Below, piece by piece: positions 3 to 33,305 of a stretch of DNA of 42,030 nt. Source of the stretch: a virus. Where the stretch lies: positions 1 to 42,030 of the IMG/VR virus record IMGVR_UViG_3300032293_002217. One strand, written 5' to 3'. A program made the position numbers and the translations under genes. Within the stretch, counting starts at the first letter, position 1, and every line of letters starts with the position of its first letter. The notes below the pieces were generated by a model that was given only the letters and a program-made list of their open reading frames with translations, was not told the DNA's origin and searched no databases.

Positions 3-632
3 AATGAGCGTCCAGTTATGCTAGAGCTATGTTCGTATTGGGCGCACTATTCAATGTGGTTCTTGCAAAATAAGAAAGAAGGAGTTTCCTATCTTGTCGA
101 GCCAGACTCAGAAAACCTTCAATCTGGGATCTTTAACTTTAAAACAAATGGGTATAACGGTAACTTTATAAATAAGTCCGTAGGACCTATTGACCCATTG
201 CATAATAAAATAAATGATAAGCAGACAAATATTTTAGATTTTAGCGTAGATAATTTTTTTAACGAGTACAATATAGAAAAATTAACAATTCTACACTCTG
301 ACATTCAAGGAGCCGAGATTAACATGCTGCATGGAGCAAAAAAATCTTTGTCTTCGTATTCTATTGATTACGTATTTGTCTCAACTCACAGTCAGAGTAT
401 ACACAGCACCTGTGTAGATATGCTAAAAAGCTATGGGTACATTATAGAAGTTTCTTCTGACGTGGAGACTCACTCTACCTCTCTTGACGGATTTATTTTG
501 GCTACTTCTCCAAACGCAACAAAAATATTTAATAATTTTTTACCACTCGGGAGACTAGACATTTTAAAAACATCTCCAAAAAGTATATTAGACAATCTTG
601 TGTTAACCTATGAAGGAATAAACAATGATTAA
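3..632 (+). CDS. FkbM-family methyltransferase, 5' end missing
   Basis: The reading frame is open to the left edge, and the residues before the first ATG (position 18) read NERPV, which fits the family pattern, so the gene starts outside the window. A motif SDIQGAE (residues 94-100 counted from that ATG) followed by a Met-Leu-x-Gly-Ala stretch is typical of the C-terminal half of FkbM-type SAM-dependent O-methyltransferases, which methylate sugar hydroxyls; the segment VEPD near residue 28 fits the SAM-binding fold. Its stop overlaps the next start by 8 nt, so it is cotranscribed with the GDP-fucose synthase. A sugar substrate is inferred from context. The first (glycine-rich) motif cannot be seen because of the truncation. 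Confidence 0.75.
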   Translation, partial: NERPVMLELCSYWAHYSMWFLQNKKEGVSYLVEPDSENLQSGIFNFKTNGYNGNFINKSVGPIDPLHNKINDKQTNILDFSVDNFFNEYNIEKLTILHSDIQGAEINMLHGAKKSLSSYSIDYVFVSTHSQSIHSTCVDMLKSYGYIIEVSSDVETHSTSLDGFILATSPNATKIFNNFLPLGRLDILKTSPKSILDNLVLTYEGINND

Positions 633-1536
633 GTACTTGATTGCGGGGAGCACCGGGCTTGCAGGCTCTGCTCTATGCAGAAAGTTAGAAGATATAGGCG
701 AAGACTACGTAGGAATTTCTTCAAAAGACTTAGATCTTAAAGATTATAATCAAACGTTAGAAATATTAAAAAGGTACATGCCTCAAAATGTTGTTATTGC
801 TGCCGCAAAAGTAGGCGGAATTAAGGCAAACAACACGTATCCAGTAGAGTTTTTAAACGAAAACATACTAATTGGGATGAACTTAATTAACGCGTCATTT
901 GAATTAAAAATCCCCAATGTAGTATTTCTCGGATCTAGCTGCGTCTATCCAAAATTTGCGCAACAGCCGATGAAAGAACAGTCCTTAATGACCGGCCCTT
1001 TAGAAGAAACTAATTCTGCGTATGCTATCGCGAAGATCGCGTGCATTGAGCTAATAAAGTCGTATCGCAAACAATACGGTTTAAACTGGTTTTCTGTAAT
1101 GCCGACAAACCTATACGGTGAAAACGACAATTTTGATTTAGAAAATAGCCACGTCATGCCAGCAATTCTAAGAAAGGTGCATGAAGCAAAACTAAACAAA
1201 GATAAAAAAGTTCTAATGTGGGGTAGTGGTAATCCAAGAAGAGAGTTCATGAATTCAAACGATTTAGCTGACGCTATAGTATTCTTGATAGATAACAACA
1301 ATCAAAATGATGTTGTAAATGTAGGAGTAGGCTACGACATTACTATAAAAGAATTAGCAGAAAAAATTGCCAAGGAGGTCGAGTACGAAGGAGAGTTCGC
1401 CTGGGATCTGAATTCGTTAGATGGCCACCCTCAAAAACTACTTGACAGTTCTAATATTTTTAACATGGGATGGAAGCCAAAAATAGATATTAACAACGGA
1501 ATACGTGACTATTACGATTGGTATATAAAAAAATGA
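625..1536 (+). CDS. fcl: GDP-L-fucose synthase
   Basis: This short-chain dehydrogenase would convert GDP-4-keto-6-deoxymannose to GDP-L-fucose by 3,5-epimerisation and NADPH-dependent reduction in the cytoplasm. The Rossmann motif GSTGLAG is at residues 8-14, the family-typical AAKVGGIKAN at 60-69, the catalytic Ser in GSSCVYP near 104-105, and the YxxxK pair is Y133/K137. The length of 303 residues is normal for the family and all catalytic residues seem present. It lies between an FkbM methyltransferase (8-nt overlap) and a GT10 fucosyltransferase (ATGA overlap), which supports a fucose-transfer role. The preceding enzyme, GDP-mannose 4,6-dehydratase, is not in the window and could be upstream or supplied by the host. 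Codons are AT-rich compared with the rest of the window, which suggests recent acquisition. Confidence 0.9.
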   Translation: MIKYLIAGSTGLAGSALCRKLEDIGEDYVGISSKDLDLKDYNQTLEILKRYMPQNVVIAAAKVGGIKANNTYPVEFLNENILIGMNLINASFELKIPNVVFLGSSCVYPKFAQQPMKEQSLMTGPLEETNSAYAIAKIACIELIKSYRKQYGLNWFSVMPTNLYGENDNFDLENSHVMPAILRKVHEAKLNKDKKVLMWGSGNPRREFMNSNDLADAIVFLIDNNNQNDVVNVGVGYDITIKELAEKIAKEVEYEGEFAWDLNSLDGHPQKLLDSSNIFNMGWKPKIDINNGIRDYYDWYIKK

Positions 1537-12342: not shown

Positions 12343-13029
12343 TTAGTTCACGTTTCTTCTTTTTTCCCACTCGATTAAGTCGTTTGGAAAATCAAAATCT
12401 TCTGTCCAGTCGTCTATCTCAACGTAGTTATCATTGCTAAACATCTGCTCGTAGTTTTTATTTACGTTTGCGTTTCCACTTGTTAGGTAGCGGTAAAGCG
12501 ACCATCCGCCTGCAGCCATGGTTGTCGGCACAAGGACCTCCAGCGCTCGCTTAAACCTGTTGTGATGCTTTGGATCTAAAGAATACGCAAAGATCTCCTT
12601 ACACATCTTTCCCGTAATCTGCGACTCTTTAGTTCTGCAAAAGCACCTCCAGGAGCCTTCATGTGTCATTATTGTATGAACGGCCTCGTCGGTAAAATAA
12701 ACGTCTCCATAGACAAGTATGGTTCTTTTAGAGGTATCCCACAAGTGCACTGACGATAAAAACTTATCCATCTCACGCCACTCACGTGGAACGTAGTTTG
12801 GATGTACAAACTTCATCGGTCTATCAGGCACAAACAGCTGCGTCCCATCTATGCGATAGCGCTCGTCACTTCCTACTACAACTATGTCATCTGTGTACTT
12901 CTTATACTGAGATATGGTTCTATCAAGCAGTCTTTGTCCTTCAATTTCAACAAGGTGTTTTGGAGTCTCGCGATAATTTTTCCAGCGTGTCCCGTCACCT
13001 GCAGCAAGTACGACAACACGATAACCCAT
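12343..13029 (-). CDS. Sugar-phosphate nucleotidyltransferase
   Basis: The N-terminus LAAGDGTRW (8-16) and PKHL (23-26) form the pyrophosphorylase signature G-x-G-T-R...PK of enzymes that make NDP-sugars. YGDVYF near residue 120 provides the acidic metal-binding position. The length of 228 residues is that of short catalytic-domain-only members. The start overlaps the stop of the second WhiB gene by one base (TAATG), so the two are coupled. The nucleotide and sugar cannot be read from the sequence. It likely supplies an activated sugar to the glycosyltransferases. Confidence 0.82.
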   Translation of the reverse strand: MGYRVVVLAAGDGTRWKNYRETPKHLVEIEGQRLLDRTISQYKKYTDDIVVVGSDERYRIDGTQLFVPDRPMKFVHPNYVPREWREMDKFLSSVHLWDTSKRTILVYGDVYFTDEAVHTIMTHEGSWRCFCRTKESQITGKMCKEIFAYSLDPKHHNRFKRALEVLVPTTMAAGGWSLYRYLTSGNANVNKNYEQMFSNDNYVEIDDWTEDFDFPNDLIEWEKRRNVN

Positions 13030-13659: not shown

Positions 13660-14613
13660 TCACGCGGCTTGGTATTCATCCGTAACCATTTTGATGCCCT
13701 CATCAAAAGAGATTTTTGGGTACCAGTCTAATATCTCCTGCGCCTTGCGTGTATCTGGACATCTCCTCAAAACAGAACCAAGGGGGGCAGCATGAACTAT
13801 TAACTCAAGGTCACCTCGTCCCATCACCTTAAGTATTCTGCGTGCAGCATTTTCTATCGTCATTTCATCATCTGTACCCAGGTGAAAAATTGGAACTTTA
13901 GAACTAGATTCACCAAGAGCAAGTATTGTTCCACTTACTGCATCGTCAATATGTAAAAAAGATCTTGTATTTTCTCCACCATGTATCTCGGCAACTCCGC
14001 CCATAACACGTCCAATAAAATCTGGAATGAAATGGTCACCTCCCATATCTTTACCATAAACATTATGATATCGCACTATGCTCCCTTGAAGTCCCAATTC
14101 TTTAGAAGCAGCCACCAATGCCATCTCGCCATGCATTTTTGCCATGGCGTATGACCATCGCGGATTATGAACATCTGTTATTGAAAGTATGACTTCTTCT
14201 TTAGTCGGAACCGCTGCCATTCCCGTATCAACAGAGCCTGCATAGACCTCACTTGAACTAGTGTAAAGAATTGGAGCTCGACCCGAATACTTCCGGATAA
14301 TCAGAAGTGTCGGCAGGGTGGAGGCTTCCAACACCGTCCAAGGATTTGAGTAAAACCGTGACGTCCCGTTTAGGGCTGCTAATGAAAATACAGCGGATAC
14401 TTCCTCGGGCAATAAATCAGCGCTTCTGGGGTCACACAAATCAAGCTCCAGTATCTTTACTTTAGGAAGTTTGGCAAGTTCTAAAAGCCTTTTACTAGAC
14501 TTGAGGTCTACAGCATAAATTATTTTAGTTTCAGGGTTTGTACTCAATTTTCTAACAAGATGACTCCCAATAAATCCACCAGCCCCGGTTACCAAAGGAG
14601 ACAACAGAGTCAT
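13660..14613 (-). CDS. NAD-dependent sugar epimerase/dehydratase
   Basis: An extended short-chain dehydrogenase of 317 residues. GAGGFIG (10-16) is the NAD-binding motif, TSSS (118-121) supplies the catalytic Ser and Y155/K159 the YxxxK pair. I start at ATG 14613, which overlaps the dehydrogenase stop as ATGA and follows a strong GGGGAGG site; an in-frame start at 14628 is possible. It lies directly after a UDP-sugar dehydrogenase, so UDP-glucuronate decarboxylation or 4-epimerisation is the most likely reaction, though other NDP-sugars cannot be excluded. Confidence 0.85.
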   Translation of the reverse strand: MTLLSPLVTGAGGFIGSHLVRKLSTNPETKIIYAVDLKSSKRLLELAKLPKVKILELDLCDPRSADLLPEEVSAVFSLAALNGTSRFYSNPWTVLEASTLPTLLIIRKYSGRAPILYTSSSEVYAGSVDTGMAAVPTKEEVILSITDVHNPRWSYAMAKMHGEMALVAASKELGLQGSIVRYHNVYGKDMGGDHFIPDFIGRVMGGVAEIHGGENTRSFLHIDDAVSGTILALGESSSKVPIFHLGTDDEMTIENAARRILKVMGRGDLELIVHAAPLGSVLRRCPDTRKAQEILDWYPKISFDEGIKMVTDEYQAA

Positions 14614-15932
14614 ATTGAACCTCCCCAAGAAAAAAGAGTCTGATGATTTCCGATAGATTCTTTAGAAACTACATCCCAGAAATCTACTATTACCAGATTT
14701 GGTTTTCCTAGTGTAGAAATAAGTTCGTTAACTCTTGCTAGCATTCCAGAATTAGTTAGAACAACTAGATAATCACATTCAGAAATTACAGACTCTGCTG
14801 ACTCTTGCTGAGATATAACATCCTCAAAACCTCTTACTAAGCCTGCTGGCTCATAGCCAAGAAACCTTACTCCATGGATTTCACGGGTAAAAAAATCCAC
14901 AACTTCGTACGCAGCGCTGCCGCGAGTGTCCTTCGTAGGTGGATTTCCTTTGAATGCCAAACCAAGAATTCCAACATTCCGAATTACCCCTACACTCGTA
15001 AGGCTTTTTCTTAAAAATTCTGAAATTATGCTCTCGTTCATTAAACGCGCAGATTGAGAAATAGCTAATTCTACTCCTGATAGTTTTGCACTTTGAATCA
15101 GAATCCATGGATCTTTTTCCAAACAAGGACCACCGCTTGGTCCAGGGCGGGCAATATTGGATCTAGTGTAATTACGGTTGGCAGCCTCAATTATCTGATT
15201 TGCGCTTATTCCAAGACTGTTAGCTAACATTGCTATTTCGTTACTGAAGCCAAACATCACATCACGGTAAGTATTATTCACCAGTTTAGTCAGCTCTGCG
15301 GCTTCTAAACTGTCAACTAGAATTACCTCACGACAAATCTTTGAAAATAATTTGTGCGCGGCTCGCGCACTTTCCTCGTTAAGAGCACCTATGATTTGCG
15401 GTAAGAATTCAATCTCTCGGAGTGCATCGCCCTCTATTGTTCTTTCAGGACACATTGCTAAATTGATATCCAATCCGGTTTCTTCAAGCAGTGCTAGTAC
15501 CAAACTCCTTGTCGCCCCAACCATTACAGTGGATCGGACAATTACTAAATCATTTGTCTTTAAATACGGCAAAATACCTTTAACCGCGTTCCTTAAAATC
15601 TCCATATCAACAGTCCGGTTTTGAATTGGAGTTCCCACAGTAAGAATAAAAACATTGCAGGATAAAATATCAGCTATGTCTTCTTCTGCTTGGTAGACAT
15701 TAAATAGCCCATCTCTAATTGCCTCGGTAAGAGACTCATCTAAGCCTGGTTCAAGAACTTCAGTAACTCCGTTATTCAGGTCTTCTACAAATTTAGAGTT
15801 CTTCTCTAAACCTCGGACTTTTATTCCTTTCTTTGTTAGAGCCATCGCCAGAGTAAGGCCAACAAAACCTACGCCTACTATGCAAACTTCCACAGGCTTG
15901 CTAATACTACGCTCTATTTCATATTCAGGCAT
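14610..15932 (-). CDS. UDP-glucose/UDP-HexNAc 6-dehydrogenase
   Basis: This enzyme would oxidise C6 of a UDP-sugar to a uronic acid in two NAD-dependent steps. The Rossmann motif GVGFVG is at 20-25, the family Lys and Asn in ELTKLVNN at 214-221, and the catalytic Cys270 in GPSGGPCLEKD. The C-terminal UDP-binding domain is complete (440 residues). The N-terminal sequence resembles both UDP-glucose and UDP-N-acetylmannosamine dehydrogenases, so the sugar is uncertain. The start overlaps the RNR stop by one base (TAATG) and the stop overlaps the epimerase (ATGA). Base composition is lower in GC than the RNR gene, suggesting a sugar cassette inserted behind the RNR. Confidence 0.88.
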   Translation of the reverse strand: MPEYEIERSISKPVEVCIVGVGFVGLTLAMALTKKGIKVRGLEKNSKFVEDLNNGVTEVLEPGLDESLTEAIRDGLFNVYQAEEDIADILSCNVFILTVGTPIQNRTVDMEILRNAVKGILPYLKTNDLVIVRSTVMVGATRSLVLALLEETGLDINLAMCPERTIEGDALREIEFLPQIIGALNEESARAAHKLFSKICREVILVDSLEAAELTKLVNNTYRDVMFGFSNEIAMLANSLGISANQIIEAANRNYTRSNIARPGPSGGPCLEKDPWILIQSAKLSGVELAISQSARLMNESIISEFLRKSLTSVGVIRNVGILGLAFKGNPPTKDTRGSAAYEVVDFFTREIHGVRFLGYEPAGLVRGFEDVISQQESAESVISECDYLVVLTNSGMLARVNELISTLGKPNLVIVDFWDVVSKESIGNHQTLFSWGGSI

Positions 15933-19518: not shown

Positions 19519-20192
19519 CGCTAGGCTTACTTCCAGCTTCTGGAAGTGCATCACGTGTCAGCGGAATCCCTAAGTTTATTCTTCCTATTGAAGAAGGCTT
19601 CTCTCTTCTACAGTGGCACGTCGAGTTAATGAACCAGGCATGTGACTCTATACGTATTGCAACTCGTGAATGCTGGATGCCTCTCGTGTCGCCTCTCAAT
19701 CTTGGCGCAGATATATTCATGAAGGAACCGTCAACTATGTCCGATGCGGTCCTAGAGATGTCTCGTGACCGTAACGACGCGGTGATCATAGGAATGCCCG
19801 ATATTTACATTCACAACTCTGAAAACAACTTTTATAAGGACATGCTTGAATCAGATGGCGACATCGTTCTTGCAACATGGGATTACAAGTATAAGACAAT
19901 GAAAGGCAAGGTTGGCCAGGTTCTTGTTGATCGGTTCTCTAATGTCCTTGAGGTACTTGATAAGGATCCATCCTGCGAGTACGACCAGATGTGGGGAGCT
20001 ATTCTTTTTCGCAACGGGCTAGACAGAATTGATCCAAACGGCGGAAGTGTTCTTAAGGATCTTAATAAGTGGATTAAGGACGGAGTATCTGTCAAGGCTG
20101 TCGCGATGACAGGCGAGTACATTGACTCCGGAACGTTTGATGGCTTAACGTATCTCTATTCTAAGATCCGGGAGAAAAATGAATCTGCGTGA
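19515..20192 (+). CDS. Sugar-phosphate nucleotidyltransferase
   Basis: The protein of 225 residues begins with GTG overlapping the previous stop (GTGA). LLPASGSASR near residue 5 and PKF near 19 form a variant of the pyrophosphorylase signature, and GMPDIYI near 93 gives the metal-binding Asp. Later GEYIDSGTFDG is typical of RfbA/GlmU-type enzymes. It would make an NDP-sugar for the adjacent glycosyltransferase. It is not a close copy of the enzyme at 12343. Confidence 0.8.
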   Translation: MTLGLLPASGSASRVSGIPKFILPIEEGFSLLQWHVELMNQACDSIRIATRECWMPLVSPLNLGADIFMKEPSTMSDAVLEMSRDRNDAVIIGMPDIYIHNSENNFYKDMLESDGDIVLATWDYKYKTMKGKVGQVLVDRFSNVLEVLDKDPSCEYDQMWGAILFRNGLDRIDPNGGSVLKDLNKWIKDGVSVKAVAMTGEYIDSGTFDGLTYLYSKIREKNESA

Positions 20193-20859
20193 GTTTGTAA
20201 ATAAAGACCAGACGACATACTCACAGATCAAGCAAGATCTATTTGTTCTTTATTACTATCAAGATACTCCTGGATACTTCGTTGAGTTTGGCGCTCTTGA
20301 CGGAGTGGACACAAGCAACACATATCTGCTTGAGAAAGAGCACGGATGGAAAGGTATCCTAGCCGAGCCACTTCCACGCTTTAAGGAAGCTCTTGAAACT
20401 AATCGCACCGCGTCTCTTGACTTTCGTTGTGTCAGCTCCCTCTCCGGTGAAACTATTCAATTCGGTGAGGTCGAGGACTTCCCAGCATTATCAACTGCGG
20501 TGAAGCTTAAGGACCAGGATAGCGTCTGGAAGCAGCGTCGTCAAAATCCTAAGGTTCACGATGTCACGACTGTTACCCTTGACGATTTATTAGACGAGCA
20601 CAATGCGCCCGAGCAAATTGACTACCTATCAATTGATACGGAGGGCGCGGAGTACGAGATCCTTTCTCACTACTCCTTTAAGCGCAACTTCAACCTTATG
20701 ACCGTCGAGCACACAAACGCTGTCGAGGAGGAGAAGCTTAAGAAACTCCTGTTCGCGATGAACTACATGATCGTTCACAAGGACGTATCTACGTGGGAAA
20801 ACTGGTACGCGTATCGTCCTTGGTACGAAGCGTTGCCTAAAACAAACTCCTCTTATTAA
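20179..20859 (+). CDS. FkbM-family methyltransferase
   Basis: A complete 226-residue FkbM enzyme with VEFGALDG (35-42), AEP near 63, and IDTEGAE in the C-terminal half. It is homologous over its length to the AT-rich gene at 2585, but its codons match the core phage genes. The start follows GGGAG and overlaps the nucleotidyltransferase by 14 nt. It ends the glycan operon and presumably methylates the sugar added by the upstream glycosyltransferase. Confidence 0.83.
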   Translation: MNLREFVNKDQTTYSQIKQDLFVLYYYQDTPGYFVEFGALDGVDTSNTYLLEKEHGWKGILAEPLPRFKEALETNRTASLDFRCVSSLSGETIQFGEVEDFPALSTAVKLKDQDSVWKQRRQNPKVHDVTTVTLDDLLDEHNAPEQIDYLSIDTEGAEYEILSHYSFKRNFNLMTVEHTNAVEEEKLKKLLFAMNYMIVHKDVSTWENWYAYRPWYEALPKTNSSY

Positions 20860-24824: not shown

Positions 24825-25490
24825 ATGGAACTTGACGACAAGATAGCCCTTCTCTACGCACGTGTGTCTACGTCTATGCAGGTTCAAGACGGCGTTTCTT
24901 TAGACGTTCAAGAGCGTACTTTACGCCAGGCGGCAGAGTTCGCAGGGTATAAAAATGTACAGTTAGTACGCGAGGAAGGACGCTCTGGGAAGTCCATTAA
25001 AGGCCGCCCAGCCCTGCGTGGAGCCCTTGCAGATCTAGAGTCGGGTAAAGCCCATGCTCTATTTGTTACCCGCTTAGATCGCCTATCTCGCTCAACTCAA
25101 GACTTCTTATCTATCATTGACCACTCTCAAAAATATGGTTGGCGTCTTGTTCTATTAGATCTTAACCTCGACACCTCCTCGTATCAATCGCGCTTTGTCG
25201 TCACAATTATGTCTGCCCTTGCGGAGATGGAAAGATCTATCATTTCCGAGCGCCAGAAGGACGTGCACTCCGATAGACGCTCGCAAGGCAAAGTCTGGGG
25301 AGTAGATCTAGGACCTAAGAAAAGACTTCCGCAAGAAGTATTAGATCGCATATACGCTGAAAAAGCGGCAGGCACGTCTATGAACGGAATAGCTAGAAAG
25401 CTAAACGCTGAAGGTATCCCTGCTGCCTACGGCGGCAAGTGGGCCGCAGGCAGTATTAAGTACGTGCTAGATCAAGAATTAGATATTTAA
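24825..25490 (+). CDS. Serine recombinase (resolvase/invertase domain with short tail)
   Basis: The catalytic domain is complete: ARVST with nucleophile Ser15, an EGRSGKS...RPAL segment, and R83/DRLSRS (85-90), followed by the long E-helix AEMERSIISER. After residue 150 there is only about 70 residues, including ARKLNAEGIPAAYGGKW, which matches the start of the Recombinase domain of large serine integrases. At 221 residues it is far shorter than an integrase. It could be an invertase, a resolvase or a cut-down integrase. It lies between two fibre or adhesin genes, a place typical of fibre-switching enzymes. TAGTAT ends 9 nt before the ATG. Confidence 0.88.
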   Translation: MELDDKIALLYARVSTSMQVQDGVSLDVQERTLRQAAEFAGYKNVQLVREEGRSGKSIKGRPALRGALADLESGKAHALFVTRLDRLSRSTQDFLSIIDHSQKYGWRLVLLDLNLDTSSYQSRFVVTIMSALAEMERSIISERQKDVHSDRRSQGKVWGVDLGPKKRLPQEVLDRIYAEKAAGTSMNGIARKLNAEGIPAAYGGKWAAGSIKYVLDQELDI

Positions 25491-26034: not shown

Positions 26035-28119
26035 TTAGTCTCCGTACACAATAGAGGTCCAGTCCCTAGATACAGGTAACGTTCTCTGCGTCCAGGTTAT
26101 GCCGTCAGTTGACGTTGCTGCAATTGCTGATGTGTAGCTAGAAACTGCTGCAAACACTCCGTTACCGTAAGCAGCTCTTGACCAGCTCGCACTTGCAGGT
26201 AGAGTTGTTTCTGTCCATGTTATACCGTCAGTAGATACTGCCCCAACTGTAGAGCCGGCGTAGGGACCGGAAAGTGCTACAAATACTCCTCCTCCGTGGG
26301 TAAGTACTTTCCAGCTCGCACTTGCAGGTAACGTTCTCTGCTCCCAGGTGATGCCGTCAGTTGACGAGGCGGCTGTCGATGAGTTGTAGCTAGAAACTGC
26401 TGCAAACACTCCGTTACCGTAAGCAGCTCTTGACCATCCCGTACTTACAGGTAAAGTCCTCTGTGTCCATGTTATACCGTCAGTTGATGAGGCGGCTTCG
26501 GTAGAGCCTGAAACAACCGCTACAAATACACCGTTACCGTAGGTAGTTCCTTGCAAGCCAGGTAGCGCAGTTCTTTGGGTCCAGGTAACTCCGTTAGTTG
26601 ACGTTGCGGCAATACTGCCACTTGAAAGATTCGCTACAAATAATCCGTTACCATACGCAACTGAGCCAAATCCCGGATTCGCAAGTGTCGTTCTCCGTAC
26701 CCAGGTGATGCCGTCTGTCGAAGTGGCGGCAGTGTTTGAGTAGCTGGTATACGCTACGAATACGCCTACCCGAGATTCAGTTCCAAATACCTTAACATCA
26801 ACTTGATCAACTGCTGAAGGGAAGACATAAATTGTGTCTCCTTCTGTCAGAGGGTTTGTGATACCTGAAGAAATTGTTTCTATAGAGTCTCCAAGCACCT
26901 GCTCGTCCCACTTAAGTGTATTAGCTTCAGTTAAGGTAACGCCAAAGTCAACTATTCCAAGGTCGTACGTTATAGCGTTTGGAGATAAGTTTTCTACTGT
27001 AATCTCAGAAATGTTTGCAGTTGTATATGGCGGCACGGTGTATACGGCGACCTGGCCAAGTGTCTCAACTAAGCCTCCATTACCTTGCCCACCAATTGAA
27101 GTTTGGACCTCGGTAATTACAGTTCCCATTCCGAATGTAGCGCTTTGCCAGTTATCGGCGGGAATCGCTCTTTGCGTCCAGGTAATGCCGTCAGTTGACG
27201 ACGCGGCAGTACCTGCTGCAGCTGAAGATCCGCTAACTGCAACAAATACACCGTTGCCGTATGTAACCGAGTACCAGAAGCTACCTGAAGGTAGAGTTGT
27301 TTCTGTCCATGTTATACCGTCAGTAGATACTGCCCCAACAGATGAGAAAAAAGCAATTGCAGCAAATACTCCTCCGCCGTAGACAACTGAGTACCAGTAC
27401 ACATTTGTAGGCAACGTTCCCGATGCCCAGCTAACGCCGTCTGTAGACACTGCGGAATCAGTTGAGTAGAAAGCAACAGCAACAAATACACCGTTGCCGT
27501 AGGTAACTGATTTCCAGGTCCGATATGCAGGTAGTGTTTCTTCTGTCCAGGTGATGCCGTCTGTAGATCTCAGGGCGCCATATGAGTAGCTAGAAACCAC
27601 TAAAAATGTTCCGTTACCGTAGGTAACTGACTCCCAATACCCACTTACAGGAAGTGTTCTTTCTGTCCAGGTTATGCCGTTTGTTGACGTTGCGGCGATA
27701 TCTGAGTTGTAAGCAAGTGTTGCAAACACGCCGCCACCGTTGGCAATTCCAGACTGCCAAAACCTATTTGAAGGCAACGTTCTTTGGGTCCAGGTAACTC
27801 CGTTAGTTGACGATGCAGCAACTGACGAGTTGCCGCGAGTTGCTACAAACAGTCCGTTACCATACGTAGCCTTCCAGGTCCCAAAAACAGGCATTGCCCC
27901 CTGTGTCCAGGTGATGCCGTTAGTTGACGACGCGAAGTTTGACGAGCCACCGACCACTACAAAAAGGTTAGTTGGAGTCTCAGTTGTTGTCGTGTAGTAC
28001 CCTGTTCCACCAGGCCCTGGAGTATATGTATACCCTAGAAGTTTAGATGCAAGTTGGACTACTTGATTTAGAAAGTTCTTGATATTAGCCGCGGCGGCCA
28101 CACCTAGCAATATAGGCAT
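26035..28119 (-). CDS. Asp-box beta-propeller adhesin (two propellers)
   Basis: A 694-residue protein of two repeat blocks. Each repeat is about 42 residues and contains S-T-D/N-G-x-T-W, the Asp-box (BNR) motif, after a YGNGxFVA strand. I count seven Asp-boxes in residues about 65-350 and six in about 450-694, separated by a non-repetitive beta-rich domain (about 350-445). This suggests two roughly seven-bladed propellers. The N-terminus has a hydrophobic helix and a Gly/Tyr/Thr linker. Perfect DNA repeats of 50-52 bp lie in frame. Surface attachment or glycan binding is likely. No sialidase catalytic arginine triad was recognised. Confidence 0.8.
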   Translation of the reverse strand: MPILLGVAAAANIKNFLNQVVQLASKLLGYTYTPGPGGTGYYTTTTETPTNLFVVVGGSSNFASSTNGITWTQGAMPVFGTWKATYGNGLFVATRGNSSVAASSTNGVTWTQRTLPSNRFWQSGIANGGGVFATLAYNSDIAATSTNGITWTERTLPVSGYWESVTYGNGTFLVVSSYSYGALRSTDGITWTEETLPAYRTWKSVTYGNGVFVAVAFYSTDSAVSTDGVSWASGTLPTNVYWYSVVYGGGVFAAIAFFSSVGAVSTDGITWTETTLPSGSFWYSVTYGNGVFVAVSGSSAAAGTAASSTDGITWTQRAIPADNWQSATFGMGTVITEVQTSIGGQGNGGLVETLGQVAVYTVPPYTTANISEITVENLSPNAITYDLGIVDFGVTLTEANTLKWDEQVLGDSIETISSGITNPLTEGDTIYVFPSAVDQVDVKVFGTESRVGVFVAYTSYSNTAATSTDGITWVRRTTLANPGFGSVAYGNGLFVANLSSGSIAATSTNGVTWTQRTALPGLQGTTYGNGVFVAVVSGSTEAASSTDGITWTQRTLPVSTGWSRAAYGNGVFAAVSSYNSSTAASSTDGITWEQRTLPASASWKVLTHGGGVFVALSGPYAGSTVGAVSTDGITWTETTLPASASWSRAAYGNGVFAAVSSYTSAIAATSTDGITWTQRTLPVSRDWTSIVYGD
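26133..27339. repeat. Perfect in-frame direct repeats inside the propeller gene
   Basis: A 52-bp sequence at 26133-26184 recurs at 26385-26436 (offset 252 bp), and a 50-bp sequence at 26198-26247 recurs at 27290-27339 (offset 1092 bp). Both offsets are multiples of three, so recombination between copies would delete or add whole blades without shifting the frame. Confidence 0.85.
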
Positions 28120-28346: not shown

Positions 28347-29180
28347 ATGAACACACCGACAGATAAAAAGTTTTTCTTTATGGCGGGGCTACCTCGCTCT
28401 GGTGGAACCTTGATCTCATCAATTCTTAATCAAAACCCTGACGTCTACGTGTCACCGCAGTCAACTCTACCTAACACCTTAGGGGCTGCGTACAATCAGT
28501 ATCAAAGTAAAGAAAATAAGGACTCTGACCAATTCCAAAATATATTTAGCGTCATGGAGATGATTATTCCTACCTTCTACAGCGGCCGCCCCGAGAAGTA
28601 TATAGTTGATAAAAACTTTAGCTGGCTAGAGCCTCACCCGTACGTGATACTAGAGAATCACGTTAAAAACAGCATCAAAGTTATTTGCCCTGTCCGCAGC
28701 GTGCTAGAGATTCTTGCCTCTTGGAACCGCCTGTGCGAGAATGACCCTAAAAACGCGTATGACATCGAGATTAAAAGAACTGACAAAACTAAGCTTCCGA
28801 TGGCAGATAAGCGTGCAAACTACTTTATGCGCATCGGAACTGACGGAGATAATCCTGGAGGGATCTTAAATAGCATAGAAAACATGAAGAGAGTTCTGTA
28901 TCCACAGTTTAAGGACAACATTATGCTAGTCGACTACGAGGTTCTCATGCAGGATACCAAGTGGACGATTGACGCGATCTATGACTTTCTTGAGATTAAG
29001 CGTTACGATCACGATCTAGACAACCTATCCACGCCACATGCGTATAATGACACCTGGGGCATTAAAGGTCACCACGAAGTAAAGCCAAGTATCAAGCAAG
29101 AGCAGTACGACCTTGAAAAAATATTTTTACCGGAGACAATAAAAAGATACTCCGGACTAGAGTTTTGGAGAAATAAATAA
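28347..29180 (+). CDS. Sulfotransferase
   Basis: LPRSGGT (15-21) followed by LISSILNQNPD is the 5'-phosphosulfate-binding loop of PAPS-dependent sulfotransferases, which transfer sulfate to hydroxyl or amino groups. VICPVRSVLEILASW near residue 115 matches the 3'-phosphate-binding region (R-x7-S type). The length of 277 residues is normal. Its stop abuts the ATG of an APS kinase fusion, so donor and transferase are coupled. The acceptor could be a glycan from the neighbouring glycosyltransferases; that is inference. Confidence 0.87.
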   Translation: MNTPTDKKFFFMAGLPRSGGTLISSILNQNPDVYVSPQSTLPNTLGAAYNQYQSKENKDSDQFQNIFSVMEMIIPTFYSGRPEKYIVDKNFSWLEPHPYVILENHVKNSIKVICPVRSVLEILASWNRLCENDPKNAYDIEIKRTDKTKLPMADKRANYFMRIGTDGDNPGGILNSIENMKRVLYPQFKDNIMLVDYEVLMQDTKWTIDAIYDFLEIKRYDHDLDNLSTPHAYNDTWGIKGHHEVKPSIKQEQYDLEKIFLPETIKRYSGLEFWRNK

Positions 29181-29942
29181 ATGATTATCCAGATTATCGG
29201 CTTACCTGGCAGCGGCAAAACTGAGCTTGCTAAAGCGTTAAAGGAAAGAATCAACGCGATTCATCTTAACGCTGACGAGGTACGAGCAACAGTTAACTCT
29301 GATTTGGGGTTTACTCCAGAAGACCGTCTCGAGCAAGCACGCCGCATGGGCGAGATGGCGCGCCTAATTACTAAGCAAGGGGTTGCTCCAGTTATCGTTG
29401 ACTTTGTGTGCCCAACAGAGCTAACTCGTACTGCTTTTGGTAAGCCAGATATTCTAATCTTTATGGACACAATTCAAGAAGGCCGGTTTGAAGACACAAA
29501 CAAGATGTTCGAGCGTCCTTCTAATTTTGATCTTACCTATGATAGCCATGACCTAGATCAAGAACAAAAAGCAACAGACGTAATTCAAAAGTTTAAGCTA
29601 CACGATTGGTCTGCTCCAACAACTCTTATGCTTGGCCGCTATCAACCTTGGCACGAAGGTCACCATGCTTTGTATAAGGAAGCTGGCAAGCGCACAGACC
29701 AAGTTCTTCTTGGCGTACGCAATACGTACAATACAAGTGAAAAAGATCCTCTTAAGTTTGATCAGGTAAAAGAATATATTGCCAAGGATGAGTTTATGGA
29801 CGGGGCATTAGTGCTAAGACTGCCTAACATTACCAACATTGTCTATGGCCGTGATGTAGGATACAAGATCGAGCAAGTAGATTTGGGGGCAGACATTCAT
29901 GCTATTTCAGCTACTGAAAAACGCAAGCAAATGGGTCTTTAA
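29181..29942 (+). CDS. APS kinase fused to an HxGH nucleotidyltransferase
   Basis: Residues 1-140 are an APS kinase: P-loop GLPGSGKT (7-14), LNADEVR (29-35), and DFVCPT near 74. It would phosphorylate adenylylsulfate to PAPS. Residues 145-253 are a cytidylyltransferase-superfamily domain with GRYQPWHEGHH, where H158 and H161 form the HxGH site. This could be a reduced ATP sulfurylase or an NMN-adenylyltransferase-like domain; length argues for a minimal domain. If it is the former, the protein makes PAPS from sulfate in two steps. It lies between the sulfotransferase and a sulfur-anion transporter. The end holds a CTT TAA context discussed among the findings. Confidence 0.82.
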   Translation: MIIQIIGLPGSGKTELAKALKERINAIHLNADEVRATVNSDLGFTPEDRLEQARRMGEMARLITKQGVAPVIVDFVCPTELTRTAFGKPDILIFMDTIQEGRFEDTNKMFERPSNFDLTYDSHDLDQEQKATDVIQKFKLHDWSAPTTLMLGRYQPWHEGHHALYKEAGKRTDQVLLGVRNTYNTSEKDPLKFDQVKEYIAKDEFMDGALVLRLPNITNIVYGRDVGYKIEQVDLGADIHAISATEKRKQMGL

Positions 29943-30033
29943 TTATTTAGAAGAGTCTGGTCGCCTAATAAACGAAGCAGAAGAACGCATCATATTTAGG
30001 AATGCAGACGAGCGTAAGAAAGCAGTAGAATAA
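29899..30033 (+). CDS. Possible small ORF or frameshift extension after the APS kinase
   Basis: In the +1 frame relative to the APS kinase, an ATG at 29899 opens a 44-residue frame whose TAA directly abuts the GTG of the TauE gene. The part beyond the APS kinase stop (EESGRLINEAEERIIF...) is a highly charged helix. It may be a separate gene or a C-terminal extension reached by a +1 shift at CTT TAA. No ribosome-binding site is evident. Confidence 0.3.
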   Translation: MLFQLLKNASKWVFNYLEESGRLINEAEERIIFRNADERKKAVE

Positions 30034-30780
30034 GTGTCTTTTTGGATTTTTTCTATTGCTGCCGCTGTAGGCCAGCTAGTAGATGGCGCACTTGGAATGG
30101 GTTTTGGCGTAGTAACTTCTACGATGCTACTGACATTAGGCGCCTCGGCCGCGGCTGCCTCTGCTGCAGTTCATATGGCTGAAATTGCTACAACATTAGC
30201 GTCTGGGTCCTCGCATTGGTTTAGAGATAATATTGATAAAAATATGCTTAAAAAACTTGCAATTCCTGGTGGCATAGGCGCTTTTCTTGGAGCTAATTTT
30301 TTATCTAATATTGATTTAAGCAATAGCAAAACTTTTATAACAACAATTCTAATGATTCTTGGATTTGTACTTTTATATAGAAGTGTATTCAACGATTCTA
30401 TCAACGTTATAAATATATCTAATAAAAAATATTTTAGATTCTTAGGATTTACTGGTGGGTTTGTTGATGCTTCCGGTGGTGGCGGCTGGGGCCCAATCGT
30501 CACTCCAACGCTGCTGTCAACGACAAAACTTGAACCAAGAAAAGTTGTCGGAACTGTTAGTGCATCTGAATTTATTGTTGCCCTCTCTGCAAGTTTTGGA
30601 TTTTTGATTAACATAAATAAGATAGACTTAAACTGGTCAATCGTAGGCGGATTAGCGCTTGGTGGAGTACTGATGGCACCAGTTGCAGCAAAAATTGTCA
30701 CTACAATAAACAAAAAAGCATTAGGAATACTTATTGCATCTGCAATTATTTTAATTAACGGATATAAGCTGGTCGTGTAG
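30034..30780 (+). CDS. TauE/SafE-family sulfur-anion transporter
   Basis: A 248-residue membrane protein with about eight hydrophobic segments and the family repeats: GALGMGFGVVTST in the first half and GGFVDASGGGGWGPIVTP in the second. TauE/SafE proteins move sulfite, sulfate or sulfonates. The GTG start abuts the end of the preceding small frame (TAAGTG), and the stop overlaps the next gene. In this context it may import sulfate for PAPS synthesis or export sulfite. Codons are more AT-rich than those of the genes on either side. Confidence 0.87.
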   Translation: MSFWIFSIAAAVGQLVDGALGMGFGVVTSTMLLTLGASAAAASAAVHMAEIATTLASGSSHWFRDNIDKNMLKKLAIPGGIGAFLGANFLSNIDLSNSKTFITTILMILGFVLLYRSVFNDSINVINISNKKYFRFLGFTGGFVDASGGGGWGPIVTPTLLSTTKLEPRKVVGTVSASEFIVALSASFGFLININKIDLNWSIVGGLALGGVLMAPVAAKIVTTINKKALGILIASAIILINGYKLVV

Positions 30781-30983
30781 TGATAGTTTCTAAATCAAGA
30801 TCATTGGTAAAGTCACTGTCTTGGAGGGTAATTGCAATAATTACCACCTTTGTATCTATCTATATCATTACTGGCAGATTCGAGTTTGCGCTTCAAGGAA
30901 CTATACTGACCAATACTATTAACTTTATTCTATACTACGTACACGAGCGTGGATGGAATAAAATTAGCTGGGGGAGAAAATAG
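30780..30983 (+). CDS. DUF2061 membrane protein
   Basis: A 67-residue protein with SRSLVKSLSWRVIA near the N-terminus, two hydrophobic segments, and the closing YYVHERGWNKI, all diagnostic of DUF2061. In bacteria this family often lies next to sulfate-activation genes (cysC/cysN), as it does here. Start and stop each overlap the neighbours by one base. Its exact role is unknown. Confidence 0.85.
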   Translation: MIVSKSRSLVKSLSWRVIAIITTFVSIYIITGRFEFALQGTILTNTINFILYYVHERGWNKISWGRK

Positions 30984-31648
30984 TGGAACATTACGACGTA
31001 CTGATTGCGACACCAGGAGCGATGCTCGAAGCGCAATATGTAGACAGCCTTGTCGAGACGTTAGCAGATTGTGATAGACGCGGAATCACATATAAGTGGC
31101 TTAACGCCTACACGTCCTTGGTGCATCATGCAAGAGAGCTAACTGCGAGCGGCTCAAGAGATCTAAATCTTGATCCAACCCAGGTATCACCTGGAGGACA
31201 AGATATTACGTACAACAAAATATTTTGGATTGACTCCGATATATCTTGGACGACAGAGGACTTCTTTAAGATATATGACTCGGAGTATGATGTGACATCA
31301 GGTGCGTACTTACTTGCAGACGGAGTTACAACTACCGTGCACGCGTGGGGGGCGCCTGGTGGAATACCAGCCCATAAAATTCTTAGCATGAAAGAAACTA
31401 TAAAGGTGCAAAGTATTGGCTTTGGCTTTGTTGCAATGAAATGTGGAGTGTTTGAAAGTATTCAACGTCCGTGGTTTAATCATGAGCAGGTGCAGGTTGG
31501 AACAGATGCAGCTGGAAACGCAGTTATTGACACAGTAGGTGAAGACATATCCTGGTGTGTAAAAGCATACAGAGCTGGAATTGATATTTACTTTGATCCT
31601 ACGGTTCTAGTGACACACATGAAAAAAGTCCCGATCACCTGGAGATAG
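30983..31648 (+). CDS. GT-A fold glycosyltransferase
   Basis: A 221-residue protein with FWIDSD (81-86) as the DxD metal site, a GAYLLADG segment, and GEDISWCVKAYRAGIDIYFDP near the C-terminus, which is the acceptor-side acidic motif of GT2-like enzymes. The GTG start overlaps the DUF2061 stop (TAGTG). As the last gene of the cassette it could add the sugar that the sulfotransferase modifies. Donor not readable. Confidence 0.78.
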   Translation: MEHYDVLIATPGAMLEAQYVDSLVETLADCDRRGITYKWLNAYTSLVHHARELTASGSRDLNLDPTQVSPGGQDITYNKIFWIDSDISWTTEDFFKIYDSEYDVTSGAYLLADGVTTTVHAWGAPGGIPAHKILSMKETIKVQSIGFGFVAMKCGVFESIQRPWFNHEQVQVGTDAAGNAVIDTVGEDISWCVKAYRAGIDIYFDPTVLVTHMKKVPITWR

Positions 31649-32639: not shown

Positions 32640-33305
32640 TTATTTAACGATTACTACTGTAATTTTTGCCTTAGGGCATTTTGCGTTTGCATCCTTAATT
32701 GCCTTGAGCTCTTTGTCGTCAACTGTAAGTGACCAACGTAGTTTTACGTGAACCCAATTCTTAATGTATGCGCAAACGTCCTTTGCAGGAAGCCAGTCGG
32801 CTGGATCCTGATCTGACTTAGAGCGATTAGTCGCTGCGGTGACAGCAATCAACGCGTTAACGTCTCCCATGTCATTCGCGTACACCTCGCGCTTAGCCTT
32901 ATCCCACGCCTTAGCGCCTGAATCCCAAGCCTCGGCTAGAGGAACCATATGGTCAACGTCTAGTCCAGAAAAATTTGTAACTGTTAATCCGTCATACGCG
33001 GAGTACCACTTGCCTGTGTCCTTTACGATCTTGCAACCCTTATCAACCTTAGGCTTAACAAGAGCCTCCTGAATAATCACGTCGTTGCGTGTGCTGCAAC
33101 CGTTCTTATCAAGATCCGACCAGTGCTTAAATTGTGAGCGCGCGTAACCTTCACGAACATCAGGCGCAACCTTTAACGCTTTAATTCCGGCGTCTACTGT
33201 TGCAAACGTTGTAGGCTTATCTGCTGCAAACGCTCCCGTAGAGCTAGCAACGATAATAAAAAGTGTAAGAGGTAATGTTGTTTTAGTTGTGTTATGCTTG
33301 CGCAT
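32640..33305 (-). CDS. Exported HNH nuclease (DUF1524/GmrSD C-terminal type)
   Basis: A 221-residue protein with a signal peptide (MRKHNTTK, hydrophobic core, cleavage near AFA-AD at 27-28). The nuclease core is LDVDHMVPLAEAW with DVDH at 116-119, then DVNALIAV and NRSKSDQDP, the HNH pattern of secreted actinobacterial DUF1524 proteins. Four cysteines could form disulfides. It would act outside the membrane, for example on incoming or released DNA. It lies between the lysis genes and the primase-helicase. GGACC precedes the start. Confidence 0.85.
   Translation of the reverse strand: MRKHNTTKTTLPLTLFIIVASSTGAFAADKPTTFATVDAGIKALKVAPDVREGYARSQFKHWSDLDKNGCSTRNDVIIQEALVKPKVDKGCKIVKDTGKWYSAYDGLTVTNFSGLDVDHMVPLAEAWDSGAKAWDKAKREVYANDMGDVNALIAVTAATNRSKSDQDPADWLPAKDVCAYIKNWVHVKLRWSLTVDDKELKAIKDANAKCPKAKITVVIVK

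Follow-up and report, generated by a model that had tools for sequence, protein, structure and literature searches.

Gene content of the locus

The DNA analysed in this study (hereafter the window), 42,030 bases in length, is IMG/VR virus record IMGVR_UViG_3300032293_002217, positions 1 to 42,030, and the element in question is a run of five plus-strand open reading frames within positions 28347-31648. The original prediction had described this run as a phage-encoded sulfation cassette, able to make the sulfate donor 3'-phosphoadenosine 5'-phosphosulfate (PAPS) and to use it. All five genes were found at the coordinates given there, and family models confirmed four of them: the sulfotransferase (ST), a fusion of a kinase with a nucleotidyltransferase (NTase), the TauE/SafE transporter and the DUF2061 protein. 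Judging by hundreds of related viruses and a few bacteria, the fusion, a compact enzyme, appears to contain a small sulfate-activating domain of a kind not described before. The cassette genes and a neighbouring gene on the opposite strand are as follows:

28347..29180, plus strand: PAPS-dependent sulfotransferase (ST), 277 amino acids (Pfam, motifs, PDB profile matches)
29181..29942, plus strand: kinase-nucleotidyltransferase fusion, 253 amino acids, proposed PAPS synthetase (Pfam, AlphaFold, Foldseek, context)
30034..30780, plus strand: TauE/SafE family membrane transporter, 248 amino acids (PF01925)
30780..30983, plus strand: DUF2061 small membrane protein, 67 amino acids (PF09834)
30983..31648, plus strand: probable glycosyltransferase (GT), 221 amino acids (phrog_1574, DxD-like motif 'FWIDSDISW')
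26035..28119, minus strand: EPTP-like repeat protein, 694 amino acids, perhaps an adhesin or part of the tail, and a candidate target (Pfam EPTP 2.2e-8, synteny)

The genes are as tightly coupled as had been predicted. The stop codon of the ST is followed immediately by the start codon of the fusion, the ends of TauE and DUF2061 and of DUF2061 and GT overlap, and the sole interruption is a gap of 91 nucleotides between the fusion and TauE. In this gap (29943-30033), a short frame stays open (LEESGRLINEAEERIIFRNADERKKAVE) but lacks a start codon; it is probably a chance occurrence or a relic. The dedicated promoter that had also been proposed is not supported, as no plus-strand sigma-70-like site was found upstream of 28347 and the region contained 6 such sites vs. 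8.6 in shuffled sequences. The guanine-plus-cytosine (GC) fraction is 0.419 in the cassette vs. 0.457 in the window; at third positions, TauE is the lowest in the cassette (0.27 vs. 0.39-0.51 for the fusion and ST).

The sulfotransferase

The ST matched Sulfotransfer_1 (4.9e-11, 42.9 bits vs. a cut-off of 22) and Sulfotransfer_3 (4.1e-10). Its 5'-phosphosulfate-binding loop is GLPRSGGT (residues 14-21) and its 3'-phosphate-binding motif is R117...S125; in an alignment of phage ST sequences, the GLPRSGxT loop and the VR(x7)S motif were kept in 11 of 11. The window ST thus retains its predicted PAPS-binding site, the loss of which had been set beforehand as a refutation. Profile comparison with the PDB gave protein-tyrosine sulfotransferase 1 (TPST1, 5e-11) and a polyketide-synthase sulfotransferase (6.7e-11). 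Matches were also obtained to phages S-SKS1 (27%) and S-SRM01. In cyanophage S-SKS1 (L085:1663-4849), the ST gene is flanked by two YGYFGGG-repeat genes, whose tyrosine-rich products are possible targets.

The kinase-nucleotidyltransferase fusion

The fusion comprises an APS-kinase-like N-terminal half (approximately residues 1-138; APS, adenosine 5'-phosphosulfate) and a C-terminal HxGH NTase half (approximately residues 142-253). Residues 2-85 matched Pfam APS_kinase (3.4e-15), and the AlphaFold model of the whole protein (pLDDT 92, pTM 0.84) gave, as its best 50 PDB matches in Foldseek, APS kinases or APS-kinase-containing enzymes exclusively. The kinase motifs in the window are the Walker A sequence GLPGSGKT and LGFTPEDR (signature LGFxxEDR), with DWDFSxEGR in many relatives. 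On the modelled fold, the N-terminal half is an APS-kinase homologue.

The NTase half has 112 residues in the window, and domains of this kind span 112-120 amino acids. It carries the HxGH motif within GRYQPWHEGH, gave profile matches to NMNAT, and was modelled alone with a pLDDT of 91.9. Residues H158, G160, H161, S243, T245 and R248, which form the HxGH and ISxTxxR motifs, were invariant in 69 sequences; by these motifs the NTase half is assigned to the HIGH nucleotidyltransferase superfamily. A structural check had been proposed to place this half in either the NMNAT or the ATP sulfurylase fold. The fold came closest to NMNAT/PPAT, whereas several of the genomic contexts described below suggest a sulfate adenylyltransferase. 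Since the fold of the kinase is clear and that of the NTase is only NMNAT/PPAT-like, the substrate of the NTase was judged from context.

Distribution of the fusion and linkage in related phages

The fusion is encoded in at least 596 viral stretches, and the 80 nearest of these, with protein identities of 85-92%, were taken as the set of close relatives. A sulfation unit of this kind had been expected to be unusual in a phage; instead, environmental phages commonly carry the module. Third-position nucleotide identity to six sampled close relatives was 0.52-0.56 at a protein identity of about 91% (sister phage L203 was left out of this comparison because it was out of register in the ungapped alignment). 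Identity as low as approximately 0.52 at third positions, combined with approximately 91% identity in protein, indicates strong purifying selection on the fusion, and recent transfer was rejected on the same third-position values. Isolates with the fusion include Stenotrophomonas phage DLP_6 and members of Salvovirus such as Xanthomonas phage AhaSv; there, a weak Sulfotransfer_4 match (8.6e-4, under the cut-off) lies two genes upstream of the fusion.

The gene order of the phages that carry the nearest relatives of the window ST supports the linkage of ST, fusion and GT beside EPTP-like repeat proteins. In L203, the order is tail fibre, resolvase, EPTP-like repeat protein, ST (85%), fusion, DUF6356 protein (65 amino acids), GT and CHAP lysin, with neither TauE nor DUF2061. 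In L206 and L207, the order is GT-ST-fusion-DUF2061, with GT directly upstream of ST and, in L206, following the EPTP repeats; L204, L205 and L208 have EPTP-GT-ST and no fusion. GT and ST were therefore conserved together across L203-L208, and EPTP-like homologues adjoin them in L203-L206 and L208. Because ST, fusion and GT occur together in these relatives, the objection that the genes might be scattered and unlinked fails.

The remaining members of the cassette fared differently. The product of 30983..31648 is a probable glycosyltransferase with weak family support: it matched phrog_1574 (unknown function) at 3.1e-46 and phrog_34859 ('glycosyltransferase') at 1.6e-5, with no Pfam match and no PDB relative. 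TauE is a clear family member (PF01925, 5.7e-36, 124.8 vs. a cut-off of 32.6 bits), but its proposed place in a conserved unit was rejected, as it is absent from L203 and no relative was found in the isolated phages or viral contigs searched; among viral sequences, it was seen only in this window. DUF2061 (PF09834, 1.3e-15, 58 vs. a cut-off of 23.1 bits) lies downstream of the fusion within approximately 0.5 kb in 78 of the 80 close relatives (L009 and L072 are without it), while other neighbours vary. As a sulfate-activation neighbour in bacteria, the role it had been given, it appeared once clearly and once weakly when loci of 30 Pseudomonadota genomes were compared, and it was rejected as a general sulfate gene. 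The slot for a small membrane protein is interchangeable, being occupied by DUF2061 or DUF6356.

Genomic contexts in viruses and cells

Several viral loci place the fusion beside genes of sulfate transfer. In one large phage, the fusion comes immediately after a gene for inorganic pyrophosphatase (NCBIfam 1.8e-43) and is followed by a GT and a weak Sulfotransfer_2-like gene; in L173, a Sulfotransfer_1 gene lies directly upstream. Sulfotransfer_2 exceeded its cut-off in 16 of 45 fusion-bearing virus records (at most 11 matches each) and Sulfotransfer_1 in 6 of the 45. Among 22 ST-bearing contigs, an ST lay within 10 kb of the fusion in 15 vs. 8.9 expected under random placement (p=0.004), and within 5 kb in 10 vs. 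5.5 expected (p=0.024). In a control set of 27 contigs picked by a DnaB-like gene, an ST was present in both fusion-positive contigs, each of which holds many STs, vs. 4 of the 25 fusion-negative contigs (p=0.043). When 109 dereplicated neighbour proteins were scanned with Pfam, Sulfotransfer_2 (4) and Sulfotransfer_1 (3) ranked among the commonest families, and diverged STs such as F46 and F65 also occur near the fusion among phage loci. The large phages L126, L133 and L137 (G057, G062 and G066) carry approximately 9 to 11 Sulfotransfer_2 matches each, some of them clustered near the fusion.

In cells, a scan of 84,980 bacterial and archaeal genomes turned up 13 loci, of which nine have a full-length fusion relative; the scan relied on short peptide patterns, and this count is therefore a lower bound. 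A few further cellular relatives emerged when 385 genomes from the same class were searched with a profile. Across phages and cells, the kinase and NTase co-occur, either fused or as adjacent split genes. A 555-amino-acid protein of Rhizobium sp. BK376 (L172:5131-6798) joins Sulfotransfer_2 (21-231), APS_kinase (292-373) and CTP_transf_like (436-466) in one chain. In the marine alphaproteobacterial order of SAG AG-464-G09, the halves are separate, overlapping genes in 5 of 6 genomes, within an invariant operon, CbiX-SUMT-CysI-CysH-DUF2061-kinase-NTase (one copy is cut within SUMT by the contig end). CysD above cut-off was found in none of these six genomes and a canonical Sat in one of them, the genomes being incomplete.

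A further genome, G418, is a single contig of 1,199,990 bases that encodes two Sulfotransfer_1 proteins (1.1e-24 and 5.8e-23) in addition to the split pair. When the whole contig was read with tblastn, no match to Sat, CysH or CysI was obtained; matches to the CysN query were weak (22-29% identity) and were read as other translation-type GTPases. G418 was rejected as a clean case of a genome with no other APS kinase because it encodes a second APS-kinase-like protein (114 bits, under the 127-bit cut-off), and only the missing Sat argues there. Elsewhere in G418, away from the split pair (L392:998-2038), a DUF2061 gene adjoins a TauE/SafE gene in convergent orientation; TauE also stands beside DUF2061 in the window. 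In SAR11, a pyruvate-kinase-like gene precedes the fusion, and the one canonical Sat of G032 likewise adjoins a pyruvate-kinase-like gene, a shared neighbour that is suggestive only with regard to a sulfate role.

A proposed sulfation module and its alternatives

Combined, these results describe a real and linked cassette for sulfation, the novelty of which is likely to lie in the small NTase. The cassette is probably a sulfation module in which the fusion serves as a compact PAPS synthetase feeding sulfotransferases. A further reading, less firm though on balance favoured, takes the small HxGH NTase as a minimal sulfate adenylyltransferase of a third class that has no sequence relationship to Sat or CysDN. 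This class would occur mainly in phages (as the 253-amino-acid fusion) and in some marine bacteria in place of CysDN or Sat.

Because several of its genomic contexts suggest a sulfate adenylyltransferase, the NTase half is read as the sulfurylase, and would convert sulfate and ATP to APS. The kinase half would convert APS and ATP to PAPS, a step well supported by fold and motifs, and the ST, by its motifs, is predicted to transfer the sulfuryl group of PAPS onto an acceptor. The claim that PAPS is both made and used by phage genes is well supported by context and motifs. Because ST and GT adjoin EPTP-like repeat proteins in related phages, a glycan or a virion protein of the host-recognition region is the probable acceptor; from their position, the EPTP-like repeat proteins of the adhesin region would be the most economical targets. 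More speculatively, DUF2061, DUF6356 or TauE in the following slot might move sulfate across the membrane. Sulfur-anion import and a glycan target, both named in the original prediction, are putative for the cassette.

Several observations weigh against the sulfate-activating role of the fusion. The NTase fold is nearest to NMNAT/PPAT (best Foldseek E 0.003), and ATP sulfurylase is missing among its best 50 Foldseek matches; PF01747 (Sat) was not matched by the fusion in hmmscan, and the NTase half was rejected as a canonical ATP sulfurylase. CTP_transf_like on residues 150-188 fell short of its cut-off (0.0015, 19.1 vs. 21 bits), which is reached in L172 (22.3 bits). Against the TIGR00455 equivalog model, the kinase scores 60 bits, below the cut-off of 138.7; its DGD motif reads NAD, and the Asn of the ENIRR motif, the canonical APS-binding residue, is not retained. 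In addition, the proximity test and the control test both used few contigs, which, with related phages among them, are not fully independent, most of the 80 nearest phage loci are without a Pfam-detectable ST beside the fusion, and the cellular copies L344-L347 and L350 have no recognised sulfur genes nearby.

The foremost alternative, although an unlikely one, is that the kinase half alone acts on sulfate, converting host APS to PAPS, with the NTase performing another adenylyl or cytidylyl transfer or serving a structural purpose. The NMNAT/PPAT affinity of the NTase in fold and profile would fit this alternative, as would the lack of the ATP sulfurylase motifs QxRNP and GRDHAG in the window fusion. 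However, the kinase and NTase travel together in both arrangements in phages and cells, the NTase is present in genomes that have CysH/CysI or sulfotransferases with no CysD or Sat, and its active-site motif is invariant, all of which speaks against this alternative.

Less probable still is an auxiliary role for the fusion, in which it would step up assimilatory sulfate reduction (cysteine supply) in the infected cell, with the neighbouring ST being incidental. The cellular split pair does stand in a CysI-CysH operon, and phage cysC has been interpreted in this way (PMC8190135). Against assimilation, the ST is fused to the pair in Rhizobium, directly upstream in L173 and, in many phages, next to the fusion or near it; among the 109 phage-neighbour proteins, CysH is outside the 25 most frequent families, and G418 has the pair with no CysH/CysI. 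A NadR-like enzyme of NAD or nucleotide salvage (ribosylnicotinamide kinase plus NMNAT), although in keeping with the GRYQPWHEGH motif and the NMNAT profile matches, is very improbable, given a kinase half that matches APS kinases and not the NadR kinase, contexts of sulfate and sulfotransferase genes, and no NAD genes noticed nearby.

Relation to known systems

The proposed PAPS synthetase resembles PAPSS1/2 in having the kinase first and the adenylyltransferase second, in the same proposed overall reaction and in a kinase that matches the APS kinase of PAPSS1. It differs in that its second half is an HxGH NTase of approximately 112 amino acids with no ATP sulfurylase match by profile or fold, and in size (253 amino acids vs. 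the 630-amino-acid PAPSS1 chain). In the marine alphaproteobacterial order, the split pair takes the operon position of CysDN/CysC or Sat, alongside CysH and CysI, whereas the NTase is without CysD, CysN or Sat homology and has no GTPase subunit. The fold and the HxGH and ISxTxxR motifs are shared with NMNAT/PPAT-type HIGH nucleotidyltransferases; the NTase is, however, shorter and only distantly matched to them, and its contexts relate to sulfur, not to NAD or CoA.

Sulfotransferases of the same superfamily as the window ST have been reported alone in cyanophages and OM43 phages, where their function was described as unclear (PMC10580990), whereas the window ST adjoins a probable donor-making enzyme. 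Phage cysC auxiliary genes are likewise phage-borne APS kinases; the available portions of the two sources discuss them as sulfur assimilation and describe neither a fused NTase nor a sulfation unit (PMC8190135, PMC8066274). No published description of the fusion was found in the open-licence literature. If the proposed reading is correct, phages of lakes and the sea produce their own activated sulfate and sulfate something with it, the first step of sulfate activation has a new and very small enzyme class, and it becomes clear how some bacteria with CysH/CysI or sulfotransferases do without a recognised ATP sulfurylase.

Other features of the window

Five further genes of nucleotide-sugar or glycan metabolism are present in the window:

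14610-15932, minus strand: UDP-glucose/GDP-mannose dehydrogenase
13660-14628, minus strand: epimerase
625-1536, plus strand: epimerase
12343-13029, minus strand: NTP_transf_3 protein
20179-20859, plus strand: FkbM methyltransferase

The nucleotide-sugar enzymes among these (UDP-glucose dehydrogenase family, epimerases) fit a glycan as the substrate for sulfation. A resolvase/invertase-type recombinase is encoded at 24825-25490, between the genes for a collagen-like tail fibre and the EPTP-like protein, and might switch host-recognition genes. Finally, a protein with a GmrSD_C domain (3e-10) is encoded at 32640-33305 on the minus strand, adjoining the CHAP lysin.

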